This document shows, piece after piece, positions 4,913 to 21,842 of a stretch of DNA of 64,000 bases. This DNA is from Methylobacterium oryzae (GTDB lineage: Bacteria > Pseudomonadota > Alphaproteobacteria > Rhizobiales > Beijerinckiaceae). Position 1 is the stretch's first letter; the number at the start of each line of letters is the position of its first letter. The translations under genes were made by a program, and so were the position numbers. Location of the stretch: the NCBI RefSeq assembly GCF_021398735.1, contig NZ_CP090349.1, forward strand, positions 502,501-566,500. Direction: 5' to 3'. The notes below the pieces were generated by a model, which was not told the DNA's origin, did not search any database, and saw only the letters and a list, made by a program, of their open reading frames with translations.

Positions 4913-5800
4913 TCACGGATGCCGCGCCGCCTCGGCGAGCCAGCCGCAGAAGGCCCGCACCGCCGGATCCTCCGCCCGTGGCTCCGGGACGTAGGTGTAG
5001 TAGCTCCGCGCCGGCAGGGCGGGGCCCGGGAAGGGCAGGGTCAGGCGGCCGGCCGCGACGTCGTCGGCGATCAGCCGCTCGGGCCCCATGGCGACGCCGA
5101 GCCCGTCGAGGGCGGCCTGGAGGGTCAGGTAGAAGTGCTCCAGCGTCACCGTGGCCCGCGGCGCCAGCTCCGGGACGCCCGCCGCCCGCAGCCAGTCGGG
5201 CCAGACCCGCGGCAGCGTCGCGGCGTGCAGCAGCGTGTGTTGCCGGAGATCCGCCGGCACCCGGAGAGGCAGCCGCCGCAGCAGGTCCGGGCTGCAGACC
5301 GGGATGCGCCGCTCGGACAGGAACGGCTCCGCGCGGTGGCCCGGCCGGCTGTCCGGCCCGCCCCGGATCGCCACGTCGAACGGCTCCGCCAGGCTGGCGA
5401 GGGGCACGTTCGAGGTGGTCAGCCGCACCTCGATCGACGGGTTGGCCCGCTGGAAGCCCGACAGGCGCGGGATCAGCCAGCGGAGTGTGAAGGTGGCCAG
5501 CGCGTTCACGTGCAGCAGGCGCGGCCGGCCGCGCTCGGCCTGCCGGGCGGTGGCAAGGGCGATGCGGTCGAGGGCGGCGCCGATCTCGGTGGCGTAGGCC
5601 GTGCCGGCCTCGGTGAGGACCACGCGCCGGTTGTGGCGCTCGAACAGCGGCAGCCCGAGCCAGCCCTCCAGCGTCTGGACGTGCCGGCTGACCGCCCCGT
5701 GGGTGACCCGCAGCTCGCCCGCCGCGCGGGTGAAGCTCCCATGCCGCGCGGCCGCCTCGAAGGCTTTCACGGCGTTGAGGGGCGGCAGGCGACGGTGCAC
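4913..5800 (-). CDS. LysR-family transcriptional regulator (GcvA-like)
   Basis: 295 residues from a GTG start at 5800. The N-terminal winged helix is clear (residues about 5-65: NAVKAFEAAARHGSFTRAAG and LPLFERHNRRVVLTEAG). A periplasmic-binding-like effector domain occupies the rest. The form PPLNAVKAFEAAARHGSF is typical of the GcvA/AmpR branch. It is divergent from the MFS transporter gene (93 bases between starts), so the usual LysR logic suggests it controls that transporter and itself. The effector is unknown. Confidence 0.88.
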   Translation of the reverse strand: MHRRLPPLNAVKAFEAAARHGSFTRAAGELRVTHGAVSRHVQTLEGWLGLPLFERHNRRVVLTEAGTAYATEIGAALDRIALATARQAERGRPRLLHVNALATFTLRWLIPRLSGFQRANPSIEVRLTTSNVPLASLAEPFDVAIRGGPDSRPGHRAEPFLSERRIPVCSPDLLRRLPLRVPADLRQHTLLHAATLPRVWPDWLRAAGVPELAPRATVTLEHFYLTLQAALDGLGVAMGPERLIADDVAAGRLTLPFPGPALPARSYYTYVPEPRAEDPAVRAFCGWLAEAARHP

Positions 5801-11615: not shown

Positions 11616-12770
11616 ATGGCGGCCAAGGATGAAGCGACGTGGCGGGTCGGCGTCCTGTTCTCCCGCAGCGGGGTGAGCGGCATCACCGAGACCGAGCACT
11701 TCCTCGGCACCGCCCTGGCGATCGAGGAGATCAACCGGGCGGGCGGCGTGCTCGGGCGCCCGATCGAGCCCGTCTGCTACGACCCCGCCGGCGACAACGA
11801 CGCCTACCGCACCCTGGCCCGGCGGATGCTCGCCGAGGACGGGGTCGAGGTGGTGTTCGGCTGCTCGCTCTCGGCGAGCCGGAAGTCGGTCATGTCCACC
11901 GTGGAGCGGCACAACGGCCTGCTCTGGTACCCGTCGATCTACGAGGGCTTCGAGTACTCGGAGAACATCATCTACACCGGCGCGACCCTCAACCAGAACG
12001 TCTTCGCCCTGGCCGACTACCTGATGCAGGAGCACGGGCCGCGGATCTTCCTGATCGGCTCCGACTACATCTACCCGCGGGAATCGAACCGGGTCATGCG
12101 CGACCTGATCGAGGCGAAGGGCGGGACCATCGTGGGCGAGCTGTACGCGGCCCTCGACGCGGACGACGCGGCCCACGCCGCCATGATCGCGGCGATCCGC
12201 GACGCCGCTCCGGACGCGGTCTTCTCCACGGTGGTGGGGCGCGGCGCCGAGCGGCTCTACCGCGCCTACGCCGCGTCCGGCATCGACCGCGCCCGCTGCC
12301 CGATCGCCAGCCTCACCCTGGCGGAGGGCCAGATCCGCGCGATCGGCCCCGAGCACTGCACCGGCCACGTCCTCGCGGCGCCGTATTTCGGCGCGCTGCC
12401 CGGCGAGGAGAACCGGCGCTTCGTCGCCGCCTTCCAGGCCCGGTTCGGGCCTGAGCGCCCCACCAGCATGTGGTCGGAGACCGCCTACGCGCAGGTCCAC
12501 CTCTTCGCCCGGGCGCTCGCGGAGGCCGGCACCCTCGACGCCGAGCGCCTCGGCGCGGCGGCCCTGCGGCAGCGCCTCGCGGCGCCGGAGGGCGAACTCG
12601 CCTTCGACGGCGAGACGCGCCACATCTGGCTCACCCCCGGCATCGGGGTCGCCCGCGCGGACGGGCAGTTCGACGTCGTCTGGCGGGCGCGGCGGCCGGT
12701 GCGGCCCGACCCGTACCTCGCGTGGTCCCGGTTCGAGACGAACTGGCTGGAGGAGGGGCTCGCCGCGTGA
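11616..12770 (+). CDS. amiC: AmiC-like cytoplasmic amide sensor, negative regulator of AmiR
   Basis: 384 residues, essentially the length of Pseudomonas AmiC. It has a periplasmic-binding type I fold (RVGVLFSRSGVSGITE, VSTVERHNGLLWYPSIYEGF) but no signal peptide, as expected for the cytosolic ligand sensor that sequesters AmiR until an amide is bound. It ends in a GTGA overlap with the next gene, so the two are translationally coupled as in Pseudomonas amiCR. It heads a long amide-uptake locus. The inducer is not predictable. Confidence 0.88.
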   Translation: MAAKDEATWRVGVLFSRSGVSGITETEHFLGTALAIEEINRAGGVLGRPIEPVCYDPAGDNDAYRTLARRMLAEDGVEVVFGCSLSASRKSVMSTVERHNGLLWYPSIYEGFEYSENIIYTGATLNQNVFALADYLMQEHGPRIFLIGSDYIYPRESNRVMRDLIEAKGGTIVGELYAALDADDAAHAAMIAAIRDAAPDAVFSTVVGRGAERLYRAYAASGIDRARCPIASLTLAEGQIRAIGPEHCTGHVLAAPYFGALPGEENRRFVAAFQARFGPERPTSMWSETAYAQVHLFARALAEAGTLDAERLGAAALRQRLAAPEGELAFDGETRHIWLTPGIGVARADGQFDVVWRARRPVRPDPYLAWSRFETNWLEEGLAA

Positions 12771-13393
12771 CCGCCCCCGCCCGCAAGATCCTGGACGACC
12801 TGCGGCGCGCCCGCGCCCTCGTCATCCATCCCCGGGACGAGGAGGCCGCCGCTTTGCTGGAGCAGCTCCGCCGCCTCGGCTGCGCGGTCTCCCTGGCGTG
12901 GCCGCCGCCCGCCGCCCTGCCGGCCGACATCGACACGCTGTTCATCCAGCTCGACGACGCCCAGGTGATGCACCTGCTGCCGTCGATCGAGGCGATCGAG
13001 CCGGCGGTCATCGCCATCGTGGCCTACGAGAGCCCGACCTCGCTGAAGGCGATCGCGGACGTCAACGCCCACGGCGTGCTCAACAAGCCGCTCCACCCGC
13101 GGGGCGTGCTCACCCAGTTCGCCCTGGCCCGCTACCGGCGCGGTTACGAGGGCCGGCTCACCAGCAAGATCAACCGGCTGGAGGAGACCATGAAGGGCCG
13201 CCGCACCGTCGAGAAGGCGGTCCGGCTGCTCGTGGACCTGAACCGGATCGACGAGGACGCCGCCTACAAGATGCTCCGGGACCGGGCCACCGCCGCCCGT
13301 GTGCCGATGGCGAGCGTGGCCGAGAGCGTGGTCTCCGCCCACGAGGCGATGAGCGGACTCGGCCTGCGCATCGCGTTGGCGGAAAAGACTTGA
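12767..13393 (+). CDS. amiR: AmiR-like ANTAR-domain RNA-binding antiterminator
   Basis: 208 residues from a GTG that overlaps the amiC stop. The N-terminal pseudo-receiver domain (about 1-125) lacks the usual phospho-acceptor context. A coiled coil and C-terminal three-helix ANTAR domain follow (RLEETMKGRRTVEKAVRLL, AYKMLRDRATAARVPMASVA). AmiR prevents termination by binding paired hairpins in leader RNA. A matching pair of hairpins and a terminator lie immediately downstream, before the nitrilase gene. Control by AmiC is inferred from gene coupling. Confidence 0.9.
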   Translation: MTAPARKILDDLRRARALVIHPRDEEAAALLEQLRRLGCAVSLAWPPPAALPADIDTLFIQLDDAQVMHLLPSIEAIEPAVIAIVAYESPTSLKAIADVNAHGVLNKPLHPRGVLTQFALARYRRGYEGRLTSKINRLEETMKGRRTVEKAVRLLVDLNRIDEDAAYKMLRDRATAARVPMASVAESVVSAHEAMSGLGLRIALAEKT

Positions 13394-13457
13394 TCGCAGC
13401 AGCCTGCCGCATTTATGGTCTTGCGGTCTGTTTCGGGGTGCGTATCGTAGTCTAACC

Positions 13458-13488
13458 GGGCAAGGTTGCCCCGCAGCAGCAGTGCTGC
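13458..13488 (+). promoter_or_regulatory. Candidate ANTAR antitermination element (two hexaloop hairpins)
   Basis: Hairpin P1 is GGGC-AAGGTT-GCCC (13458-13471), with a hexaloop that has A at position 1 and G at position 4, the known ANTAR loop signature. One base later, hairpin P2 is GCAGC-AGCAGT-GCTGC (13473-13488), a perfect five-pair stem with a six-base loop that has A1 but A instead of G at position 4. It lies between amiR and a terminator in the leader of the amidase gene, which is where an AmiR target should be. Confidence 0.72.
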
Positions 13489-13505
13489 ACGACATCACGG
13501 CTTTG

Positions 13506-13552
13506 AAGCCTCTGGTTCGCGGATGATCTGTCTCCGCGCCCAGGGGCTTTTT
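13506..13552 (+). terminator. Leader terminator (attenuator) before the amidase operon
   Basis: AAGCCTCTGG pairs with CCAGGGGCTT (one G-U), enclosing an inner CGCGGA/TCCGCG stem, and is followed by TTTTT. It ends 17 bases before the ATG of the nitrilase-family amidase. The segment GGCT-TTGA-AGCC at 13499-13510 could form an alternative hairpin that uses the 5' base of this stem, consistent with an attenuator that AmiR would disrupt. Confidence 0.8.
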
Positions 13553-13568
13553 GCGTTTCGGAGCTCTC

Positions 13569-14414
13569 ATGGTCCAGGCGAACGATCCCGCGCGCCCGCC
13601 GATACGGGTGTCGTGCATCCAGTTCGAGCCGGAATTCGGCGCGGTCGACGCGAACATGGCGCGCGCGTCGGACCTCGTCCGCGCGGCCGCCGCCGAGGGC
13701 GGCCGGCTGATCGTGCTGCCGGAACTCGCGAGCACCGGCTACGTGTTCGAATCCGCCGCGGAGGCCGCCGCGCTGGCCGAGCCGGTGCCGGACGGCCCGA
13801 CCACCCGCGCCTGGGCGGCGCTCGCCGCGGAGCTCGGCGTGCACATCGTGGCGGGCATCGCCGAGTCCGCCGGCGAGACCCTCTACAACGCCGCCGTGAT
13901 CGTCGGGCCGGAGGGCTACATCGGCACCTACCGTAAGGCGCATCTCTGGGATCAGGAGAACGTGTTCTTCGCCAGGGGCGATCTCGGCTTCCCGGTCTTC
14001 GACACCGCGCTCGGGAAGGTCGGCGTCGCCATCTGCTACGACGGCTGGTTCCCCGAGACCTTCCGGCAGCTGGCGCTCGCCGGCGCCGAGATCGTCTGCA
14101 TCCCGACCAACTGGGTGCCGATGCCCGACCAGCCCGACGGTGAGGCCGCCATGGCCAACACCCTGCACCGGGCCGCCGCGCACTCGAACGGCATCTTCAT
14201 CGCCTGCGCCGACCGGGTCGGCGTCGAGCGCGGCCAGCCCTTCGAGGGGCAGAGCCTGATCATCGGCCCCAAGGGCTGGCCGCTCGCCGGCCCGGCGAGC
14301 CGCGACCGGACCGAGACCGTCTCGGCGCTGGTCGACCTCGACGCGGCCGGGCGCAAGGACCTCAACGCGTTCAACTCGCTCCTGCGCGACCGCCGCGCCG
14401 ACATCTACGGCTGA
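13569..14414 (+). CDS. Nitrilase-superfamily carbon-nitrogen hydrolase (amidase)
   Basis: 281 residues from ATG 13569 with GGAG five bases upstream. The catalytic triad is visible: Glu52 in VLPELASTG, Lys123 in TYRKAHLW and Cys156 in AICYDGWFPE. It belongs to the amidase/carbamoylase branch of the family and would hydrolyse small amides or N-carbamoyl compounds in the cytosol. It is the first gene after the ANTAR leader and so the likely direct target of AmiR control, as amiE is in Pseudomonas, though from a different position in that family. It is followed by the transporter genes. Confidence 0.9.
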   Translation: MVQANDPARPPIRVSCIQFEPEFGAVDANMARASDLVRAAAAEGGRLIVLPELASTGYVFESAAEAAALAEPVPDGPTTRAWAALAAELGVHIVAGIAESAGETLYNAAVIVGPEGYIGTYRKAHLWDQENVFFARGDLGFPVFDTALGKVGVAICYDGWFPETFRQLALAGAEIVCIPTNWVPMPDQPDGEAAMANTLHRAAAHSNGIFIACADRVGVERGQPFEGQSLIIGPKGWPLAGPASRDRTETVSALVDLDAAGRKDLNAFNSLLRDRRADIYG

Positions 14415-14451: not shown

Positions 14452-15618
14452 ATGGTGAAATGGTCCCTCGTCGGCGCCGCCGCGCTCGCCCTCGCCGCCG
14501 CGCAGGCCGCCACGGCCGCGCAGGCCGCCGACGGCAAGCCGATCGTCATCGGCATCCCGATCGGCCTGTCGGGCGCCAACAGCGTCGTCGCCCCCTCGGT
14601 GGTGCAGTCGGCCGAGCTCGCCGTGGAGGAGATCAACGCCAAGGGCGGCGTCCTCGGCCGCAAGCTCGTCCTAGAGGTGGCCGACGACGCCTCGGGGGCG
14701 GCCGGCGCCCAGAAGGCCTTCGACAGCCTGATCTACCAGAAGAAGGTCGACGTCCTGATCTCGATGGAGACGAGCGCGGCCCGCAACGCCGGCCTGCCCG
14801 CCGTCACCAAGGGGAAGGTGCCGTACATCTACACCTCGTTCTACGAGGGCCATTCCTGCAACAAGAACATGTTCGTGGACGCCTGGGTGCCGGAGCAGCA
14901 GGTGCCGCCGGTGGTGGACGCCTTCAAGGCGAAGGGCGCCAAGACCTACTTCCTGATCGGCAGCGACTACGCCTTCGGCCGCGGCATGCTGGGCTTCGCC
15001 AAGAGCTACGTCGAGAAGACCGGCGGCAAGGTGGTCGGCGAGGAGTACCTGCCGATGGACGGCAGCGACTGGACGGCGATCATCTCCAAGCTGAAGGAGG
15101 CCAAGCCCGACGCGCTGATCACCTCGACGGCGGGCGGCGCGCCGAACGTGACGCTGACCAAGCAGCTGCGCGGCGCGGGCGTGTCGCTGCCCTTCGCCAA
15201 CCTCGCGCTGGACGAGGGCACCGCCAAGAGCATGGGCGCGGACGCTGAGGGCGTCTACCTCTCGGCCTCCTACGTCACCGGGATCGACAGCCCGGAGAAC
15301 AAGGCGTTCCTGGCGGCGATGCAGAAGAAGTTCGGCGCGGAGCTGCGCACGCCGAACGACCTCTCGGTGCCGGAATACGAGGCGATCTACCTCTACAAGG
15401 CCGCCGTCGAGAAGGCGGGCGGGACCGAGACCGCCAAGGTGCTGGAGGCGCTCCCGACCGTGAGCTTCACCGGGCCGCGGGGCACGATCACCATGAGCAA
15501 GCAGCACCACGCGCCGCTGACCATGTATCTCGGCCAGATCCAGAAGGACGGCACCGTGAAGGTCGCCGGCACCTTCAAGGACGTCGATCCCGGCGAGCAG
15601 TGCCCGAAGCTGCAGTGA
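14452..15618 (+). CDS. Liv/Urt-type ABC transporter substrate-binding protein
   Basis: 388 residues with a clear signal peptide (LALAAAQAATAAQAAD, cut after AQA). The mature type I binding fold is typical of branched-chain amino acid, urea and amide binding proteins (GIPIGLSGANSVV, EEINAKGGVLGRK, YFLIGSDYAFGRGM). It has a strong ribosome site, AAGGAG. It is related to AmiC in fold but exported, so the locus has a cytosolic sensor and a periplasmic capture protein of the same superfamily. The ligand is probably an amide or urea-like compound, inferred from context. Confidence 0.9.
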   Translation: MVKWSLVGAAALALAAAQAATAAQAADGKPIVIGIPIGLSGANSVVAPSVVQSAELAVEEINAKGGVLGRKLVLEVADDASGAAGAQKAFDSLIYQKKVDVLISMETSAARNAGLPAVTKGKVPYIYTSFYEGHSCNKNMFVDAWVPEQQVPPVVDAFKAKGAKTYFLIGSDYAFGRGMLGFAKSYVEKTGGKVVGEEYLPMDGSDWTAIISKLKEAKPDALITSTAGGAPNVTLTKQLRGAGVSLPFANLALDEGTAKSMGADAEGVYLSASYVTGIDSPENKAFLAAMQKKFGAELRTPNDLSVPEYEAIYLYKAAVEKAGGTETAKVLEALPTVSFTGPRGTITMSKQHHAPLTMYLGQIQKDGTVKVAGTFKDVDPGEQCPKLQ

Positions 15619-15975
15619 GGGGCGGGGCACGAGGCCTCGCCCGGGCGGGCGACGATATCCACCCGTCTCGCGCCGACGTCGATGACGGAGCGCCACGTGC
15701 CCCCGCTCCCGTGCGGGAGAGGGTTGGGGTGAGGGATTAGACGCTCCAGGATCGAGTGCGCCGTCGTCGCGCTGTCTCGGACGAGACTTCTCCGGAGAGG
15801 TCACACCCCTCACCCTGTCCCTCTCCCGCACGGGAGAGGGGACCCGCGCCCGGTCCGGAAGCCGCGGTGCCGTGGTCGATACGTGACTCGGCAAGCCCGC
15901 AGAGGGGGAGGGGACCGTCGTCACCCGCCAAATCCCTCCCTCAGCCCGCGACGACACGCGCACCCGGAATCCCCG
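15619..15975. other. Intergenic region within the transporter operon
   Basis: About 360 bases with no supportable gene. Most of it is an interrupted inverted repeat listed separately, plus pyrimidine- and purine-rich tracts. No promoter or T-run terminator was recognised. The next gene starts at its right edge without a strong ribosome site. Confidence 0.6.
15705..15838. repeat. Interrupted inverted repeat (GTGCGGGAGAGGG type)
   Basis: The left arm 15705-15735 reads through GTGCGGGAGAGGG and GGGGTGAGGG. The right arm 15807-15838 is the reverse complement with few mismatches (CCTCACCC..CCCTCTCCCGCAC). About 70 bases lie between. Such CTCTCCCGCACGGGAGAGG elements are common between genes in alphaproteobacteria. 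It could form a long hairpin inside the operon and reduce downstream expression relative to the binding protein. Confidence 0.8.
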
Positions 15976-16809
15976 ATGCTGCTCACCCTCGACATCCTGA
16001 CCACGGCGGCGATCCTGTTCATCGTCGCGATCGGCCTCCTGGCGATCTTCGGCGTGCTCAAGATCATCAACTTCGCCCACGGGGCGTGGCTGACGGTCGG
16101 CGCCTACTGCGCGGTGGTGACCGCCAGGCTCGGGCTCAATCCGTGGCTCGCCCTGCCGCTCGCCTTCGTCGTCGGCGCGGCGCTCGGCGGGCTCGCCGAG
16201 CACTTCATCATCCGCCCGCTCTACCGGCGGCCGCTGGACGCGATTCTCGCCACCTGGGGGCTCGGCATCGTGGTCGGGCAGCTCATCACCCTGGCCTTCG
16301 GCCGGGACGTCCAGCTCACCCCGAACCTCTACGCCGGCACCGTCGCGTTCCTCGGCGTCGACTACTCGGCCTACCGCCTCGTGGCGCTCGGCATCGCGCT
16401 GGCGATCGGCACGCTGTTCGCGCTCACCATCGAGCGGACACGGCTCGGCCTCTCGGCCCGGGCGGTGATCATGAACGAGACCCTGGCGCGCAGCCTCGGC
16501 ATCGACACGGGCCGGGTGCGCCTCGTCGTGTTCATGCTCGGCGCCGGCTTCGCGGGCCTCGCCGGCGTCCTGCTCACGCCGCTCACCAGCGTCGATCCGA
16601 ACATGGGCGTCTCCTGGCTGATCGGCGCCTTCATGCTGGTGATGGTCGCCGACGCCTCGTACCTGGCGCTCGCGGCGGCCTGCCTGGTCTTCGGGGCCGC
16701 GCAGGTCCTGATCAGCACCTTCGTGAGCCCGATCCTGGGCAGCATCGCCGTCGCGGTGCTCGCCGCCCTCGTGCTGCGGATCAGCCCGAAAGGTTTCTCC
16801 CGTGCTTGA
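15976..16809 (+). CDS. Liv-type ABC transporter inner-membrane permease (LivH family)
   Basis: 277 residues, about eight membrane segments. It has the LivH/UrtB signature FGVLKIINFAHGAWLTVGAY and the second conserved region SLGIDTGRVRLVVFMLGAGFAGLAG. It forms the membrane pore together with the permease half of the next gene. Its last eight bases overlap the GTG start of that gene. The start ATG was chosen because the open frame further upstream is repeat sequence without family similarity. Confidence 0.92.
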   Translation: MLLTLDILTTAAILFIVAIGLLAIFGVLKIINFAHGAWLTVGAYCAVVTARLGLNPWLALPLAFVVGAALGGLAEHFIIRPLYRRPLDAILATWGLGIVVGQLITLAFGRDVQLTPNLYAGTVAFLGVDYSAYRLVALGIALAIGTLFALTIERTRLGLSARAVIMNETLARSLGIDTGRVRLVVFMLGAGFAGLAGVLLTPLTSVDPNMGVSWLIGAFMLVMVADASYLALAAACLVFGAAQVLISTFVSPILGSIAVAVLAALVLRISPKGFSRA

Positions 16810-18631
16810 GACCCTGCCCGTCGCCGAGCGTGCCGCCGCGGCGCCCCGCGGACGCCGCCTGTCCCGCGCCGCGCCCTTCGTGGTCGCGGGCCTGGCGGCG
16901 CTGGCCCTCTGGATCGCGCCGCTCGTCCTCGACACCTTCGCGGTCAACGTCCTGACCCGCTCGATGATCTACGCGGTGCTGGCCGTCACGGTGGACCTGC
17001 TCTGGGGCTTCGCGGGGATCCTGACCTTCGGCCAGGCGGCGTTCTTCGGCATCGGCGCCTACGCCACCGCGATGATCCTCGCCGCCTACGGGGCGACGCC
17101 GCTCGGGATCGCCGCGGCCATCGCGGCGGCGCTCGTCGCGCCGGCCCTGCTCGGCCTCGCGGTCGGCTGGCTGTCCTTCTACCACCGCTCGACCCCGCTC
17201 TACGCCTCGGTGATCTCGCTCGTCGTCCCGATCGTCGTCGTGCAGCTCATCTACGCGGGCGGGGAATGGACCGGCTCCAGCAGCGGCCTCGTCGGCTTCG
17301 ACGTGCTGCCCTTCGAGACCGAGGGCTATTTCCGCCTCGCGGCCCTGTTCCTGATCGCCGTCACGCTGGCGGCCTGGATCCTGGTCCGGGCCGATGCCGG
17401 CCGTGCCCTCGTGGCGCTCCGGGACAACGAGGCGCGCTGCGCCTATCTCGGCCTCAACCCGCGGCGCCTGCAGATCCGGCTCACCGCGTCCCTCGCCGCG
17501 GTGGCGGGGCTCGCGGGCTTCCTGTTCGCCAACGCCTCGGGCGTGGTCGCGCCCGAGAATGCCGGCTTCCTGTTCGGCACCGAGCTGGTCATCTGGGTGG
17601 CGCTCGGCGGCCGCGGCACGCTGCTCGGCCCGGTGCTCGGCACCGTCGCGATCGACTACCTCGCGGCGAATCTCTCGGGCGACCTGCCGTTCCTCTGGCA
17701 GCTCCTCCTGGGCTCGGCCTTCGTGGTCATCATCATCCTGCTGCCGGGCGGCCTCGCCGACCTCGTCGGCCGCCTCTGGCGGGCGCTGCCGGTGGGCCGG
17801 CGGCAGCCGGCGCCGCCGCGCCTCGTCGCGCGGGCGGCCGGGACCGAGGCGGCCGGGCCGGAGGTGACCGGCACCGAGGCGACCGGGACCCCGATCCTCA
17901 AGGTCGAGAACCTCGCTAAGGCCTACGGCGCCCTGACGGTGCTGGAGGGCATCGACCTCGAGATCCGGGCGGGCGAGCTCGTCAGCCTCGTCGGGCCCAA
18001 CGGCGCCGGCAAGACCACGCTGATGCGCTGCCTCAGCGACGGCACCGAGCCGTTCAAGGGCGCGATCGCCGTCGGCGGCACGCCGATCACCGGGCTGACG
18101 CCGAACCGGATCGTCGGCCTCGGCGTCGGGCGCAAGTTCCAGGTGGCGAGCGTGTTCGAGAGCCTGTCGGTGGCCGACTGCCTCCGCCTCGCCCGGGCGT
18201 CCCACGACGGCCTGAGCCCGGTCGGGCGGGCCGAGACGCTGGGCCTGCCGCAGCCCGCCCTCGACGTCCTGCGCATGACCGGCCTCGACCGCCAGCTGAC
18301 GCAGCCGTCGCGCCTCCTGTCCCACGGCCAGAAGCAGGCGCTGGAGCTCGCCATGGTGGTGGCGCTGGAGCCGCGGCTGATCCTGCTCGACGAGCCCACC
18401 GCGGGCCTGACCAAGGCCGAGCGCACCACCATCGGGACCGTCCTCAAGGCGCTCACCGCCGAGGGCCGGATCGCCGCCGTGCTGGTCGAGCACGACCTCG
18501 ATTTCGTGCGCGAGATCTCGTCGCGGATCGTGGTGCTGCACCAGGGCCGGCTGGTCCTGGACGGCACGGTCGAGGACGTCGTGGGCTCCGAACTGGTCCG
18601 GACCATCTACTCGGGAGGCGCCCATGGGTGA
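16802..18631 (+). CDS. Fused Liv-type permease (LivM) and ATPase (LivG)
   Basis: 609 residues from a GTG start overlapping the preceding gene. Residues about 20-335 are a LivM permease (VDLLWGFAGILTFGQAAFFG, about nine helices). A 30-residue Ala/Gly/Thr linker made of near-repeats (TEAAGPEVTGTEATGT) leads to a LivG ATPase at about 365-605: Walker A GPNGAGKTT, signature LSHGQKQALEL, Walker B LILLDEPTAG and switch His in VEHDLDF. Permease-ATPase fusion is a recognised variant of this family. It overlaps the next ATPase gene by eight bases, so production is coupled. Confidence 0.92.
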   Translation: MLETLPVAERAAAAPRGRRLSRAAPFVVAGLAALALWIAPLVLDTFAVNVLTRSMIYAVLAVTVDLLWGFAGILTFGQAAFFGIGAYATAMILAAYGATPLGIAAAIAAALVAPALLGLAVGWLSFYHRSTPLYASVISLVVPIVVVQLIYAGGEWTGSSSGLVGFDVLPFETEGYFRLAALFLIAVTLAAWILVRADAGRALVALRDNEARCAYLGLNPRRLQIRLTASLAAVAGLAGFLFANASGVVAPENAGFLFGTELVIWVALGGRGTLLGPVLGTVAIDYLAANLSGDLPFLWQLLLGSAFVVIIILLPGGLADLVGRLWRALPVGRRQPAPPRLVARAAGTEAAGPEVTGTEATGTPILKVENLAKAYGALTVLEGIDLEIRAGELVSLVGPNGAGKTTLMRCLSDGTEPFKGAIAVGGTPITGLTPNRIVGLGVGRKFQVASVFESLSVADCLRLARASHDGLSPVGRAETLGLPQPALDVLRMTGLDRQLTQPSRLLSHGQKQALELAMVVALEPRLILLDEPTAGLTKAERTTIGTVLKALTAEGRIAAVLVEHDLDFVREISSRIVVLHQGRLVLDGTVEDVVGSELVRTIYSGGAHG

Positions 18632-19367
18632 GGCAGCACGGCGGGCAACACGGCAGATCGCGCCGGCGGGGGCCGCCCTCGCCCTCGACGGGGTGTCGAG
18701 CGGCTACGGCGCCGTCGCCATCGTGCGGGACGTGTCCCTCTCGGTCGGGCCGGGGGAGATCGTGGCGCTGCTGGGCAAGAACGGCATGGGCAAGACCACG
18801 CTGCTCAAGACCGTCCTGGGCATGGTGGCCCTGCGCGGCGGCGCCATCACGGTCGGGGGCCAGGCGCTCGCCGGCCTCACGCCGGCCAAGCTCAACGCGC
18901 TCGGCGTCGGCTACGCGCCGCAGGAGCAGCCCCTGTTCCAGGACCTGTCGATCCGCGACAACCTGCGCCTCGCGGTGCCCTCCGACCGGATGCTGCCGGA
19001 GGCGCTGGAGCGGCTGTTCGGCCATTTCCCGTTCCTGAAGGACCGGCTGGCCCAGCGGGCCGGCACCCTCTCGGGCGGCGAGCAGAAGATGCTGATCCTC
19101 GGGCGCGCCCTGATGCTGCGCCCGCGCCTCCTGCTGATCGACGAGATCTCCGAGGGCGTGCAGCCCTCCATGGTCGAGCGCCTGCGCGGCGTGCTCCAGG
19201 CCGAGCGGGCCGCGGGCGTGTCCATGCTGGTGGTGGAGCAGCACGTCGCCTTCGCGCTGGCGCTCGCCGATCGCTACGCCGTCCTCAAGCTCGGCGAGAT
19301 CGTCGACAGCGGTCCGGCGCAGGCGCCGGACGCGCGGGCACGCGTCATCGACCATCTGGCGGTGTGA
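18624..19367 (+). CDS. Liv-type ABC transporter ATPase (LivF family)
   Basis: 247 residues: Walker A LGKNGMGKTTLLK, signature LSGGEQKML, Walker B LLLIDEISEG, switch His in VVEQHVAF. The pattern LGKNGMGKTT and DEISEGVQP is typical of LivF/UrtE, the second ATPase of these importers. GGAGGCG precedes the ATG. Together with the binding protein, LivH and LivM-LivG it completes one importer. Confidence 0.93.
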   Translation: MGEAARRATRQIAPAGAALALDGVSSGYGAVAIVRDVSLSVGPGEIVALLGKNGMGKTTLLKTVLGMVALRGGAITVGGQALAGLTPAKLNALGVGYAPQEQPLFQDLSIRDNLRLAVPSDRMLPEALERLFGHFPFLKDRLAQRAGTLSGGEQKMLILGRALMLRPRLLLIDEISEGVQPSMVERLRGVLQAERAAGVSMLVVEQHVAFALALADRYAVLKLGEIVDSGPAQAPDARARVIDHLAV

Positions 19368-19516: not shown

Positions 19517-20449
19517 ATGAGAGAACTCAACACCTTCTCGATCGCCGCCCGCTGCCCGCGGACCGGCCAGCTCGGCGTCGCGGTGGCGAGCGCCGTCCCG
19601 GCGGTGGGCGGCCTGTGCCCGTTCCTCAGGGCCGGGATCGGGGCCGTCACCACCCAGTCCTGGGTGAACCCCTACCTCGCCGCCCGCATCCTCGACGGGC
19701 TGGCCGGCGGGCAGGATCCCGACGCCGCGCTGGCGGCGGCCCTCGCCACCGACGACCGTCCGGACCTGCGCCAGCTCGGCCTCGTCGACGGGCAGGGGCG
19801 GGCCGCCGCCTGGACCGGCGCCGGATGCACGCCGGCGGCCGGCCACCGCACCGGGCCCGGCTACGCGGTCCAGGGCAACATGCTCGCCGGGCCGGGCGTG
19901 GTCGACGCCATGGCGGCGGCCTTCGAGGGGAGCGCCGCCCAGGATCTCGACGAGCGGCTGATGCGCAGCCTGGAGGCCGGCGACGCGGCCGGCGGCGACC
20001 GGCGCGGCAAGCAGTCGGCGGCGCTCAAGATCGTCGCCGGCGAGGATTACCCGCACCTCGACCTGCGGGTCGACGAGCACGCCGAGCCCGTCGCCGAGCT
20101 GCGCCGGGTTCTCCTGGTCGCCCGCCGTCAGCTCGTGCCGTTCGTGGCCGGCATGCCCCGGAAGGACGGCCCGGCCGGCGCCCTGCCGGACGACGTCGTG
20201 GCGATGCTGCTCAGGCCTCCCGCCGAGCGGCCGGGCGCCGCCGGGGATGCAGCCCCCGACCTGCTGCGCGACGTCGTCGGCCTGCGCCAGGAGCCCCAGC
20301 GGGTCGCCCACCTGCTGGCGCAGTTCGCGCCGGTGCTCGCCGAGATCGCGCGGCTGCGCGACCTCGACCTCGCGGACATCCACCCGCCGGTCGTGTTCGA
20401 TCCGACGCTCCCCTACCGCCGGGTGCCCCATGACGACCGCCGCGACTGA
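19517..20449 (+). CDS. DUF1028-family (Ntn-hydrolase-like) protein
   Basis: 310 residues from ATG 19517 (MRELNTFSIAARCPRTGQLG). The opening TFSIAARCPRTGQLGVAVAS and the later TTQSWVNPYLA match DUF1028, a family with an Ntn-hydrolase-like fold and no firmly assigned reaction, often encoded beside amidases and ABC importers. A C-terminal extension of about 90 residues (after PFVAGMP) is typical of longer members. The gene overlaps the following amidase start by 20 bases, so they are co-translated. A role in amide or ureide breakdown is inference from context. Confidence 0.88.
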   Translation: MRELNTFSIAARCPRTGQLGVAVASAVPAVGGLCPFLRAGIGAVTTQSWVNPYLAARILDGLAGGQDPDAALAAALATDDRPDLRQLGLVDGQGRAAAWTGAGCTPAAGHRTGPGYAVQGNMLAGPGVVDAMAAAFEGSAAQDLDERLMRSLEAGDAAGGDRRGKQSAALKIVAGEDYPHLDLRVDEHAEPVAELRRVLLVARRQLVPFVAGMPRKDGPAGALPDDVVAMLLRPPAERPGAAGDAAPDLLRDVVGLRQEPQRVAHLLAQFAPVLAEIARLRDLDLADIHPPVVFDPTLPYRRVPHDDRRD

Positions 20450-21842
20450 CGCCCTCTGGCAAGCCCCGATCACCGAGCTCGCGCGGCGGATCGCGGCGCG
20501 GGAGCTGTCGAGCGCCGAGCTCGTCGGCGCCAGCCTCGACCGGATCGCGCGCCTCGACGGCGCCCTGAACAGCGTCGTCCACCTCTCGCCCGCGGCCCTC
20601 GACGCCGCGCGCGCGGCCGATGCCGAGATCGCCCGGACGGGGCCGCGCGGCCCGCTCCACGGCATCCCGATCGCCGTCAAGGACAACTACACCACCGCCG
20701 ACATGCCGACCCGGGCCGGCACGGCTGTGGAGGCCCTGACCTTCCCGGCGGCCGACAGCCACGCCGTGGCGCGGCTGCGGGCGGCCGGCGCGGTGATCCT
20801 CGGCAAGACGCGGATGCACGAATTCGCCTGGGGCATGGTCACGCCGCCGACCCGCAACCCCTGGGACCCCGACCGGGTGCCCGGCGGCTCCAGCGGCGGC
20901 TCGGGCGCGGCGGTCGCGGGCCGCCTCTGCCCGGCCGCGCTCGGCTCGGACACGGGCGGCTCGATCCGGATCCCGGCCGCCCTGTGCGGGATCGTCGGGC
21001 TCAAGCCGACCTACGGCCGGGTCGGCCGGTCGGGGATCGTGCCGCATTCCTGGTCCCTCGACCATGCCGGGCCGCTGACCCTGACGGTGGCCGATGCCGC
21101 CCTGATGCTGCAGGCGCTCGCCGGCCCGGATGCCGGCGATCCCGCGGCCAGCGCGGCGCCGGTCCCCGACTACACGGCCGGGCTCGACCGGCCGATCCGG
21201 GGCCTGCGGGTCGCGGTGATCCGCAACCACTTCTTCGACGCAATCGACGACGACGTCGCCGCCGCCGTCGAGGCGGCGCTCCGCTTCCTCGAAGACCGGG
21301 GCTGCGCGGTGCGCGACGTCGCGGTGCCGTCCCTGCGCCACGGCCTCGGCGCCATCTACGCCATCGAGCTCGCCTCCTCGACCGCCTACCACGACCGCAG
21401 CCTCGCCCGGGGCCACGTGGCGGGCTTCGCCGCCGACGTCCGCGACCTCGTGGAGATGGGCCGGCTCGTGACCGGGCCGGACTACCTGCGGGCCGAGCAG
21501 GTGCGGGCCCTGATCATGGACGAGATGGCCGCCGTCCTGGCCGAGGCCGACGTGATCGTCGGCCCGGCCTCGCCGCTGACCGCGTGGCGGACGGACGAGT
21601 CGGCGGTGACGCTCGGCGGGCGCGCGGAGAGCGTGCTGGCGGCCTCCTGGCGCCTGACCTACCCGTTCAACCTCGCGGGCCTGCCCGCCATCGCGCTGCC
21701 CTGCGGCTTCGACCGGCGCGGCCTGCCGATCAGCCTCCAGATCGCCGCCCGGCCCTTCGCCGAGGCCGAGATCCTGCGCGTCGCCCACCAGTACGAGCGG
21801 GCGCACGCGTGGTGCTCCCGGGTGCCGCCCCTGGCCGGCTGA
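20430..21842 (+). CDS. Amidase signature family enzyme
   Basis: 470 residues from ATG 20430. The Ser-cisSer-Lys triad is visible: Lys84 in IAVKDNYTT, Ser154 in PGGSSGGSGAA and Ser178 in GSDTGGSIRIPA. The protein is soluble and has no signal peptide. It would hydrolyse an amide different from that of the nitrilase-type enzyme at the head of the locus, giving the pathway two unrelated amide hydrolases. Relatives include GatA, AtzF/allophanate hydrolase domains and aryl-amidases; specificity cannot be assigned. It is the last gene of the locus. Confidence 0.92.
   Translation: MTTAATDALWQAPITELARRIAARELSSAELVGASLDRIARLDGALNSVVHLSPAALDAARAADAEIARTGPRGPLHGIPIAVKDNYTTADMPTRAGTAVEALTFPAADSHAVARLRAAGAVILGKTRMHEFAWGMVTPPTRNPWDPDRVPGGSSGGSGAAVAGRLCPAALGSDTGGSIRIPAALCGIVGLKPTYGRVGRSGIVPHSWSLDHAGPLTLTVADAALMLQALAGPDAGDPAASAAPVPDYTAGLDRPIRGLRVAVIRNHFFDAIDDDVAAAVEAALRFLEDRGCAVRDVAVPSLRHGLGAIYAIELASSTAYHDRSLARGHVAGFAADVRDLVEMGRLVTGPDYLRAEQVRALIMDEMAAVLAEADVIVGPASPLTAWRTDESAVTLGGRAESVLAASWRLTYPFNLAGLPAIALPCGFDRRGLPISLQIAARPFAEAEILRVAHQYERAHAWCSRVPPLAG

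Follow-up and report, generated by a model that had tools for sequence, protein, structure and literature searches.

In the 64,000-nucleotide stretch of Methylobacterium oryzae DNA analysed here (the window), the gap between an amiR gene and a gene of the nitrilase family contains a series of small hairpins and an intrinsic terminator. Do these elements form an antitermination leader controlled by the ANTAR protein AmiR and, if so, which of the hairpins make up the motif? We put at roughly 85% the probability that the gap holds a three-hairpin transcription antitermination leader of the ANTAR type under the control of AmiR. As judged from their sequences, both the RNA loops and AmiR seem to depart from the textbook version of the switch.

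The genes around the gap (Table 1) are those of an AmiC-AmiR system. The amiC-like and amiR genes overlap by four bases (GTGA), and the sensor is presumably cytosolic. AmiR joins an AmiR_N domain to an ANTAR domain and adjoins AmiC, as in the AmiR family. It matches P. aeruginosa AmiR (PDB 1qo0) with an E value of 1.1e-22, and its closest matches are in Methylobacterium species (93 to 98% identity, L004-L018; loci carry L numbers throughout). From the end of amiR at 13393 to the nitrilase-superfamily gene there are 175 bases. The enzyme has PDB entry 1j31 as its top match (E 1.9e-67) and reaches 45.7 bits against a cut-off of 427 for the NCBIfam aliphatic amidase, which bears out the earlier note in placing it in a subgroup other than the classical one; the note was also right that it heads a transporter operon, the Urt-like ABC transporter genes coming next. 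A UrtC-like permease and a UrtD-like ATPase are fused there into a single 609-aa protein (16802-18628), and an amidase-signature protein (20247-21842) closes the gene cluster, as in R. leguminosarum. In Rhizobium leguminosarum WSM1325 (L078), gene order is identical through to an amidase.

Table 1. Features of the leader and its neighbouring genes (window coordinates)
Feature	Position	Strand	Evidence or remark
amiC-like ligand-binding sensor (Peripla_BP_5)	11616..12770	+	Pfam PF13433, E 3.6e-128
amiR, pseudo-receiver (AmiR_N) and ANTAR domain	12767..13393	+	Pfam PF21332, E 1.1e-32; PF03861, E 3.4e-12
Promoter-like element TTGCGG-N16-TATCGT	13421..13448	+	Predicted start probably near 13455, just 5' of H1
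H1 hairpin GGGC-AAGGTT-GCCC, loop A1/G4	13458..13471	+	90.3% of cells paired in 36 leaders
H2 hairpin GCAGC-AGCAGT-GCTGC, loop A1/A4	13473..13488	+	98.9% of cells paired in 36 leaders
H2-H3 linker, 10 nt, conserved ACATC	13489..13498	+	Alignment of 36 leaders
H3 hairpin GGC-TTTGAA-GCC, loop U1/G4/A6	13499..13510	+	All cells paired (100%, 36 leaders), in part owing to the search pattern
Intrinsic terminator	13508..13552	+	Outer arms 13508-13515/13540-13547; inner stem 13518-13523/13533-13538; T-run TTTTT 13548-13552
GGAG ribosome-binding site of the nitrilase-family gene	13560..13563	+	GGAG past the T-run in 31/36 leaders
Nitrilase-superfamily C-N hydrolase (amidase-like), first gene past the switch	13569..14414	+	Pfam PF00795, E 1.8e-53
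Urt-like ABC transporter: binding protein, permease, fused permease-ATPase, ATPase	14452..19367	+	Domain searches

The two hexaloop hairpins described earlier, with loops AAGGTT and AGCAGT, can be read directly in the sequence 3' of amiR, one base apart, and their loops are of the stated types (A1/G4 in H1, A1 without G4 in H2). An intrinsic terminator does precede the amidase ATG (13569), at a distance of 16 bases from the end of the T-run and not the 17 first given. A third hairpin, H3, lies between these elements, and its 3' arm (13508-13510) belongs to the 5' arm of the terminator. The GGAG past the T-run is absent in L050-L054. The leader seems to have its own promoter between amiR and H1: a -35-like TTG[AC] element is found 78 to 84 bases 5' of H3 in 36 of 39 leaders, compared with at most 11 when these regions are shuffled by base (1000 trials). 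Readthrough from amiCR would run into the same terminator as the leader transcript.

Conservation was studied in 39 leaders that lie behind AmiR proteins of the window's kind, named Thr-type for a residue discussed below. All but one belong to the window's class, the exception being L074, from a different class within the window's phylum. Besides the window, the sources were 16 Methylobacterium records and Antarcticimicrobium, a family search (2), an order search (16) and a phylum sample (L070, L074, L075); a class-wide AmiR search at E 1e-40 matched only the window's own genome among 385. The leaders were found through the H3 pattern together with a T-run (L018 was placed by hand), so that the complete pairing of H3 is partly due to construction. 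Alignment A1, made with MAFFT, comprises 36 leaders (without L070, L074 and L075), and alignment A2, used for the model, has 31 rows (without L010, L012, L013, L041, L044, L049, L052 and L054). Outside the 39 are L023, which is the same locus as L019, and L021, L026-L038, L055-L067 and L073, with AmiR of other kinds or not examined; L078 and L080 are also outside, yet have a Thr-type AmiR.

Standard pairs fill 96.6% of the 468 cells of H1, H2 and H3 in the 36 leaders, against 31 to 59% when the partners are slid by one to three columns. Two-sided changes are found in 27 cells of five pairs, against a shuffle mean of 7.5 (shuffle controls overstate significance because the leaders are related), one pair of H1 having nine of them and three pairs of H2 also being affected. 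Further pair types are not in excess (10, against 10.2 in shuffles). When the terminator replaces H3 in the structure, 93.4% of 828 cells are paired and 12 pairs have two-sided changes; for the outer stem of the terminator, the figure is 96.2% of cells in the 36 aligned leaders. L053 and L054 have A-U instead of G-C as the outer pair of H3, and the corresponding terminator pair is altered as well. Since the two change together, both of these mutually exclusive structures are supported. The exceptions to the pattern are H1, irregular or absent in L050-L054 and L074, and H2, whose loop is not scorable in L052 and L018.

The earlier note had set conservation of its hexaloops among orthologous leaders as the point on which its reading should fall; they proved to be conserved, with compensatory changes. 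The conserved hairpins and terminator between amiR and the nitrilase-family gene are hence confirmed as a real feature, with the arrangement of tandem small stem-loops 5' of an intrinsic terminator that marks ANTAR targets. Their presence behind amiR in 39 leaders argues for the ANTAR-type antitermination leader originally proposed, and the conserved linkage with AmiC and AmiR points to AmiR as the likely regulator.

The choice of hairpins is another matter. In the dual hexaloop of the eut systems, the linker measures 5 to 12 nt and the second hairpin overlaps the terminator; in eutP, a linker cut to 3 nt or extended to 14 drastically reduced induction (PMC3369931). Actinobacterial ANTAR target RNAs have been accepted with linkers of 2 to 25 nt (PMC8164766). 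H1 and H2, which the earlier note had taken as the dual motif, are separated by 1 nt, below the 5 to 12 nt of eut, and neither overlaps the terminator; we therefore abandon this assignment. H2 and H3 are 10 nt apart, within that range, and the distance is 8 to 11 nt across the 37 scorable leaders (10 nt in 27). As to the segment GGCT-TTGA-AGCC, it does use the base of the terminator, as had been suggested, but rather than a mere alternative hairpin it is H3 itself, which probably corresponds to the canonical antiterminator hairpin and lies 10 nt past H2.

A case can still be made for H1 and H2 as the functional dual motif, with H3 a protein-free alternative hairpin that forms after binding upstream. 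Their stems are good and in most leaders their loops begin with A1, the H1 loop lies exactly 16 nt 5' of the H2 loop in 30 of 39 leaders, and G4 is present in 21 of 37 H1 loops. Nevertheless, their linker is outside the eut range and even below that of the actinobacterial RNAs, 3 nt already being too short in eutP. Moreover, H3 is kept in the leaders with an irregular or missing H1 (L050-L054, L074), and H2 is kept there too except in L052. G at position 4 is strictest in H3, with 38 of 39 leaders (L045, with a longer loop, is among these, and L020 has A), against only 12 of 37 in H2. Finally, five terminator hairpins from loci with the other AmiR type carry a canonical A1/G4 hexaloop, with A at position 6, in H3's place. 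We thus regard a dual motif made of H1 and H2 as unlikely. Spacing, terminator overlap, persistence of H3 and strictness of its G4 together suggest that H2 corresponds to the canonical P1 and H3 to the canonical P2, or antiterminator hairpin, and H1 would be an extra recruitment hairpin. Several facts count against the three-hairpin reading: H3 has U1 and not A1, H2 has A4 and not G4, and AmiR has Thr for Met172. The gaps in H1 and H2 among the leaders, the loss of H2 in the L051 fold and the lack of a model match in L080, both described below, weigh in the same direction. Only H1 combines A1 and G4; the A4 of H2 is a trait of the lineage (A in 23, G in 12 and T in 2 of the 37 H2 loops scorable among the 39 leaders).

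Predicted folds reproduce the switch expected of a second hairpin that overlaps the terminator and excludes it, this hairpin being H3. In the segment 13454-13512, H1, H2 and H3 form at -23 kcal/mol, although 11 of 200 shuffles fold as well (z -1.79). Once the terminator 3' arm is added, the terminator displaces H3 in the minimum-energy fold (-49.4; 1 of 200 shuffles), and z for 13454-13560 is -3.35. Folding energy alone is weak evidence. The fold predicted for L020 switches like that of the window leader, and the full-length minimum-energy fold of L051 also loses H2. When the whole 175-nt stretch was folded, H1 and H2 did not form, sequence 5' of the predicted start pairing there. The segment concerned is 13397-13411 (GCAGCAGCCTGCCGC), and because it pairs into the H1/H2 region of this longer predicted fold, transcripts that continue from amiR may fold differently.

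How specific is the leader? Scanned against Rfam at E up to 5, the region gave only chance-level matches, none of them to an ANTAR-like family or a riboswitch, and Rfam thus provides no test. A covariance model of 31 leaders (R1) scored 106.9 bits at this leader. Its second match in the genome (27.8 bits, E 4e-4) lies 5' of a second AmiC/AmiR pair, and a third is at chance level (E 0.585). Among 199 genomes of the order, R1 matched 12 at E up to 0.01; an AmiR match was likewise recorded in 11 of the 12, and the remaining one (G260) is a weak hit of 21.8 bits. The R. leguminosarum leader scored 100 bits, and in 10.5 kb of L080, a Paraburkholderia locus with a Thr-type AmiR, R1 found no match at E up to 10. 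In total, 40 of the 41 Thr-type AmiR loci (the 39 and L078) have the leader. A weak control used 88 unique terminator-like hairpins, from loci all selected for an ANTAR gene. A G4 hexaloop overlaps the terminator in 33 of the 35 that belong to known leaders and in 9 of the remaining 53, which, given this origin, are not an independent background; of these nine, no fewer than three (L078, L027, L028) sit behind an amiR gene.

Two other explanations bear on these results. The terminator might merely end the amiCR transcript, the hairpins being non-regulatory and the operon regulated at the promoter or through some other factor; its place directly behind amiR, with a promoter-like element between, would agree with this. 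However, that element is 5' of the terminator and would be wasted without readthrough, the pairing of H3 survives the G-C to A-U change that it has in common with the terminator, and the weak control also speaks for an overlapping hexaloop as a mark of these leaders, so that we consider a simple terminator very improbable. Attenuation could also respond to a different signal, such as a small-molecule riboswitch, a leader peptide or a different protein, with H3 as antiterminator, since H3 against the terminator is the generic layout of an attenuator. Here the absence of an Rfam riboswitch match, the very short stretch from the predicted start to H1, and the AmiR linkage and hexaloop features, which fit ANTAR, make such a signal just as improbable.

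Returning to the AmiR-controlled leader, the protein itself has an unusual feature. In EutV, G4 of the hexaloop stacks on Tyr164, Met172, indispensable for RNA binding, acts as a plug in the loop, and A1 is described as making no specific contact (PMC8934654). The window AmiR keeps the equivalents of Tyr164 and Arg168 and has Thr at that of Met172. Among the loci analysed, 41 AmiR proteins of the window's kind have Thr at this position, and the 24 aligned AmiR of other kinds, called Met-type below, all have Met. A protein database contained 166 relatives of the window AmiR, and in the 120 for which residues were scored, the position is Thr in 119 and Ser in 1, with Tyr164 kept in 120 and Arg168 in 119. 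The 29 best-scoring other ANTAR domains in 200 sampled genomes of the phylum include 28 with Met and one that did not align. As for 34 relatives of P. aeruginosa AmiR, 29 have Met172, three lack the domain and two could not be sensibly aligned. L001 was left out of the alignment behind these further counts, and L136 failed to align. The replacement of Met172 breaks the set of three RNA-contact residues, Tyr164, Arg168 and Met172; these are not a strict criterion of the family, since P. aeruginosa AmiR keeps Met172 but not the other two.

The loops differ as well. In most Thr-type leaders, loop positions 1 and 6 can form a Watson-Crick pair (32 of 37 for H1, 36 of 37 for H2, 37 of 39 for H3), mostly as A-U in H1 and H2 and as U-A in H3, with flips to U-A in H1 of L045 and H2 of L043 and L044, and the minimum-energy fold closes each hexaloop to four bases through this pair. 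From these patterns, Thr-type AmiR would seem to recognise loops closed by a 1:6 pair. We tentatively propose, at somewhat less than even odds, a Thr172 subfamily of AmiR with a distinct code, in which the methionine plug, which helps to keep the hexaloop open, was lost, loops are closed by the 1:6 pair, G4 is needed only in the antiterminator hairpin and H1 is a second recruitment site on the nascent RNA, protein and RNA having changed jointly in a single alphaproteobacterial lineage and a few neighbours. Against such co-variation, H3 has U1/A6 in four Met-type leaders (L057, L059, L060, L079), 1:6 complementarity also occurs in Met-type loops, both past the terminator (5 of 11) and 5' of it (4 of 12), and the Met-type upstream loop of L029 (AGATCC) is without G4. 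The correlation may also reflect a single event, because the Thr-type proteins look like one lineage.

Met-type leaders of the same order (for example L059, L060, L079, L104 and L107) resemble the window leader in having a GGC-N3GNA-GCC hairpin that shares the 5' arm of the terminator (L055-L061, L079), and Urt-like transporters are present at two annotated loci (L079, L081). They differ in their single upstream hexaloop and in a further hexaloop past the terminator in 11 of them. The upstream loop has A1/G4 in all 12 leaders where one could be picked, as do all 11 loops past the terminator, but the choice was made by eye among hexaloops of the A1 type, and this bias affects both the comparison of G4 and the Fisher tests; six of the 17 Met-type loci inspected gave no loop (L081, L101, L109, L110, L111, L124). 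The further A1/G4 hexaloop lies some 60 to 95 bases past the terminator-overlapping hairpin (L056, L098-L100, L102-L105, L107, L108, L079) and may be a second regulated step. The second AmiC/AmiR pair of the genome (L096, G000:C1:5147000-5158000; 5527-5625, minus strand) is of the Met type and has its leader 5' of amiC, not behind amiR; its hexaloop, AAAGCT, is of the A1/G4 type, and a GGC-GATGCC-GCC hairpin lies by the terminator. ABC transporter genes come next, by inspection of reading frames. Terminator hairpins with A1/G4 were also seen 5' of Met-type amiR, probably before amiC, in L057 (reverse complement 274), L062 (255), L104 (reverse complement 260) and L081 (3782). These positions suggest that Met-type systems carry leaders on both sides of amiCR.

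With the P. aeruginosa AmiC-AmiR/amiE system, the locus shares an AmiC sensor, an AmiR with pseudo-receiver and ANTAR domain, and a terminator leader before an amide-hydrolysing enzyme (PMC3369931). Here, in contrast, amiCR is 5' of the leader, the enzyme is of another branch of the nitrilase superfamily and a Urt-like transporter comes next; Thr replaces Met172 while Tyr164 and Arg168 are kept, whereas P. aeruginosa AmiR keeps Met172 and has His and Ser at the other two positions. The comparison with the amiE leader is by published statements. Queried on the phylum sample and a plasmid collection, P. aeruginosa AmiR gave a best identity of about 36%, and on 114 genomes of one family, presumed relatives of Pseudomonas, no match at E 1e-45. 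E. faecalis EutV/eutP is similar in its hexaloop hairpins before a terminator, the second of which overlaps the 5' arm, and in a linker in whose range that of H2-H3 falls (PMC3369931, PMC8934654). It differs from the present leader, which has three hairpins, complementary positions 1 and 6, U1 in H3, A4 in H2 and a replaced Met172; positions 1 and 6 of the eut consensus loop, AANGRR, are not complementary (PMC3369931). EutV is controlled by phosphorylation, AmiR here presumably by AmiC. In the titles and opening abstracts of the open-licence papers listed, neither this leader nor an ANTAR subfamily without Met172 was found, and the leader may be among the supplementary predicted targets of PMC3369931; AmiC, AmiR and urea ABC transporters are named in PMC13209695.

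By analogy with the AmiR and EutV systems, the switch might work as follows. Transcription would begin just 5' of H1, from the promoter between amiR and the leader. As long as an amide-like ligand is lacking, AmiC would keep AmiR inactive and RNA polymerase would halt at the terminator. In the presence of such a putative ligand, AmiR would be released and would bind nascent H1 and H2, then H3. Held by AmiR, H3 would occupy the 5' arm of the terminator, and polymerase would enter the nitrilase-transporter operon.

The EutV complex, for which Met172 is reported to be essential, is the sole crystal structure of an ANTAR protein with its RNA in the literature covered. A natural subfamily that lacks this residue and has matching loop differences would be a ready system for the study of how ANTAR proteins choose their RNA. 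It also suggests that leaders of this kind would be overlooked or wrongly paired by searches that demand A1 and G4 in each of the two loops, and it would add a third hairpin to a two-hairpin model. For Methylobacterium and Rhizobium, the prediction is a regulated uptake of amide- or urea-type nitrogen.
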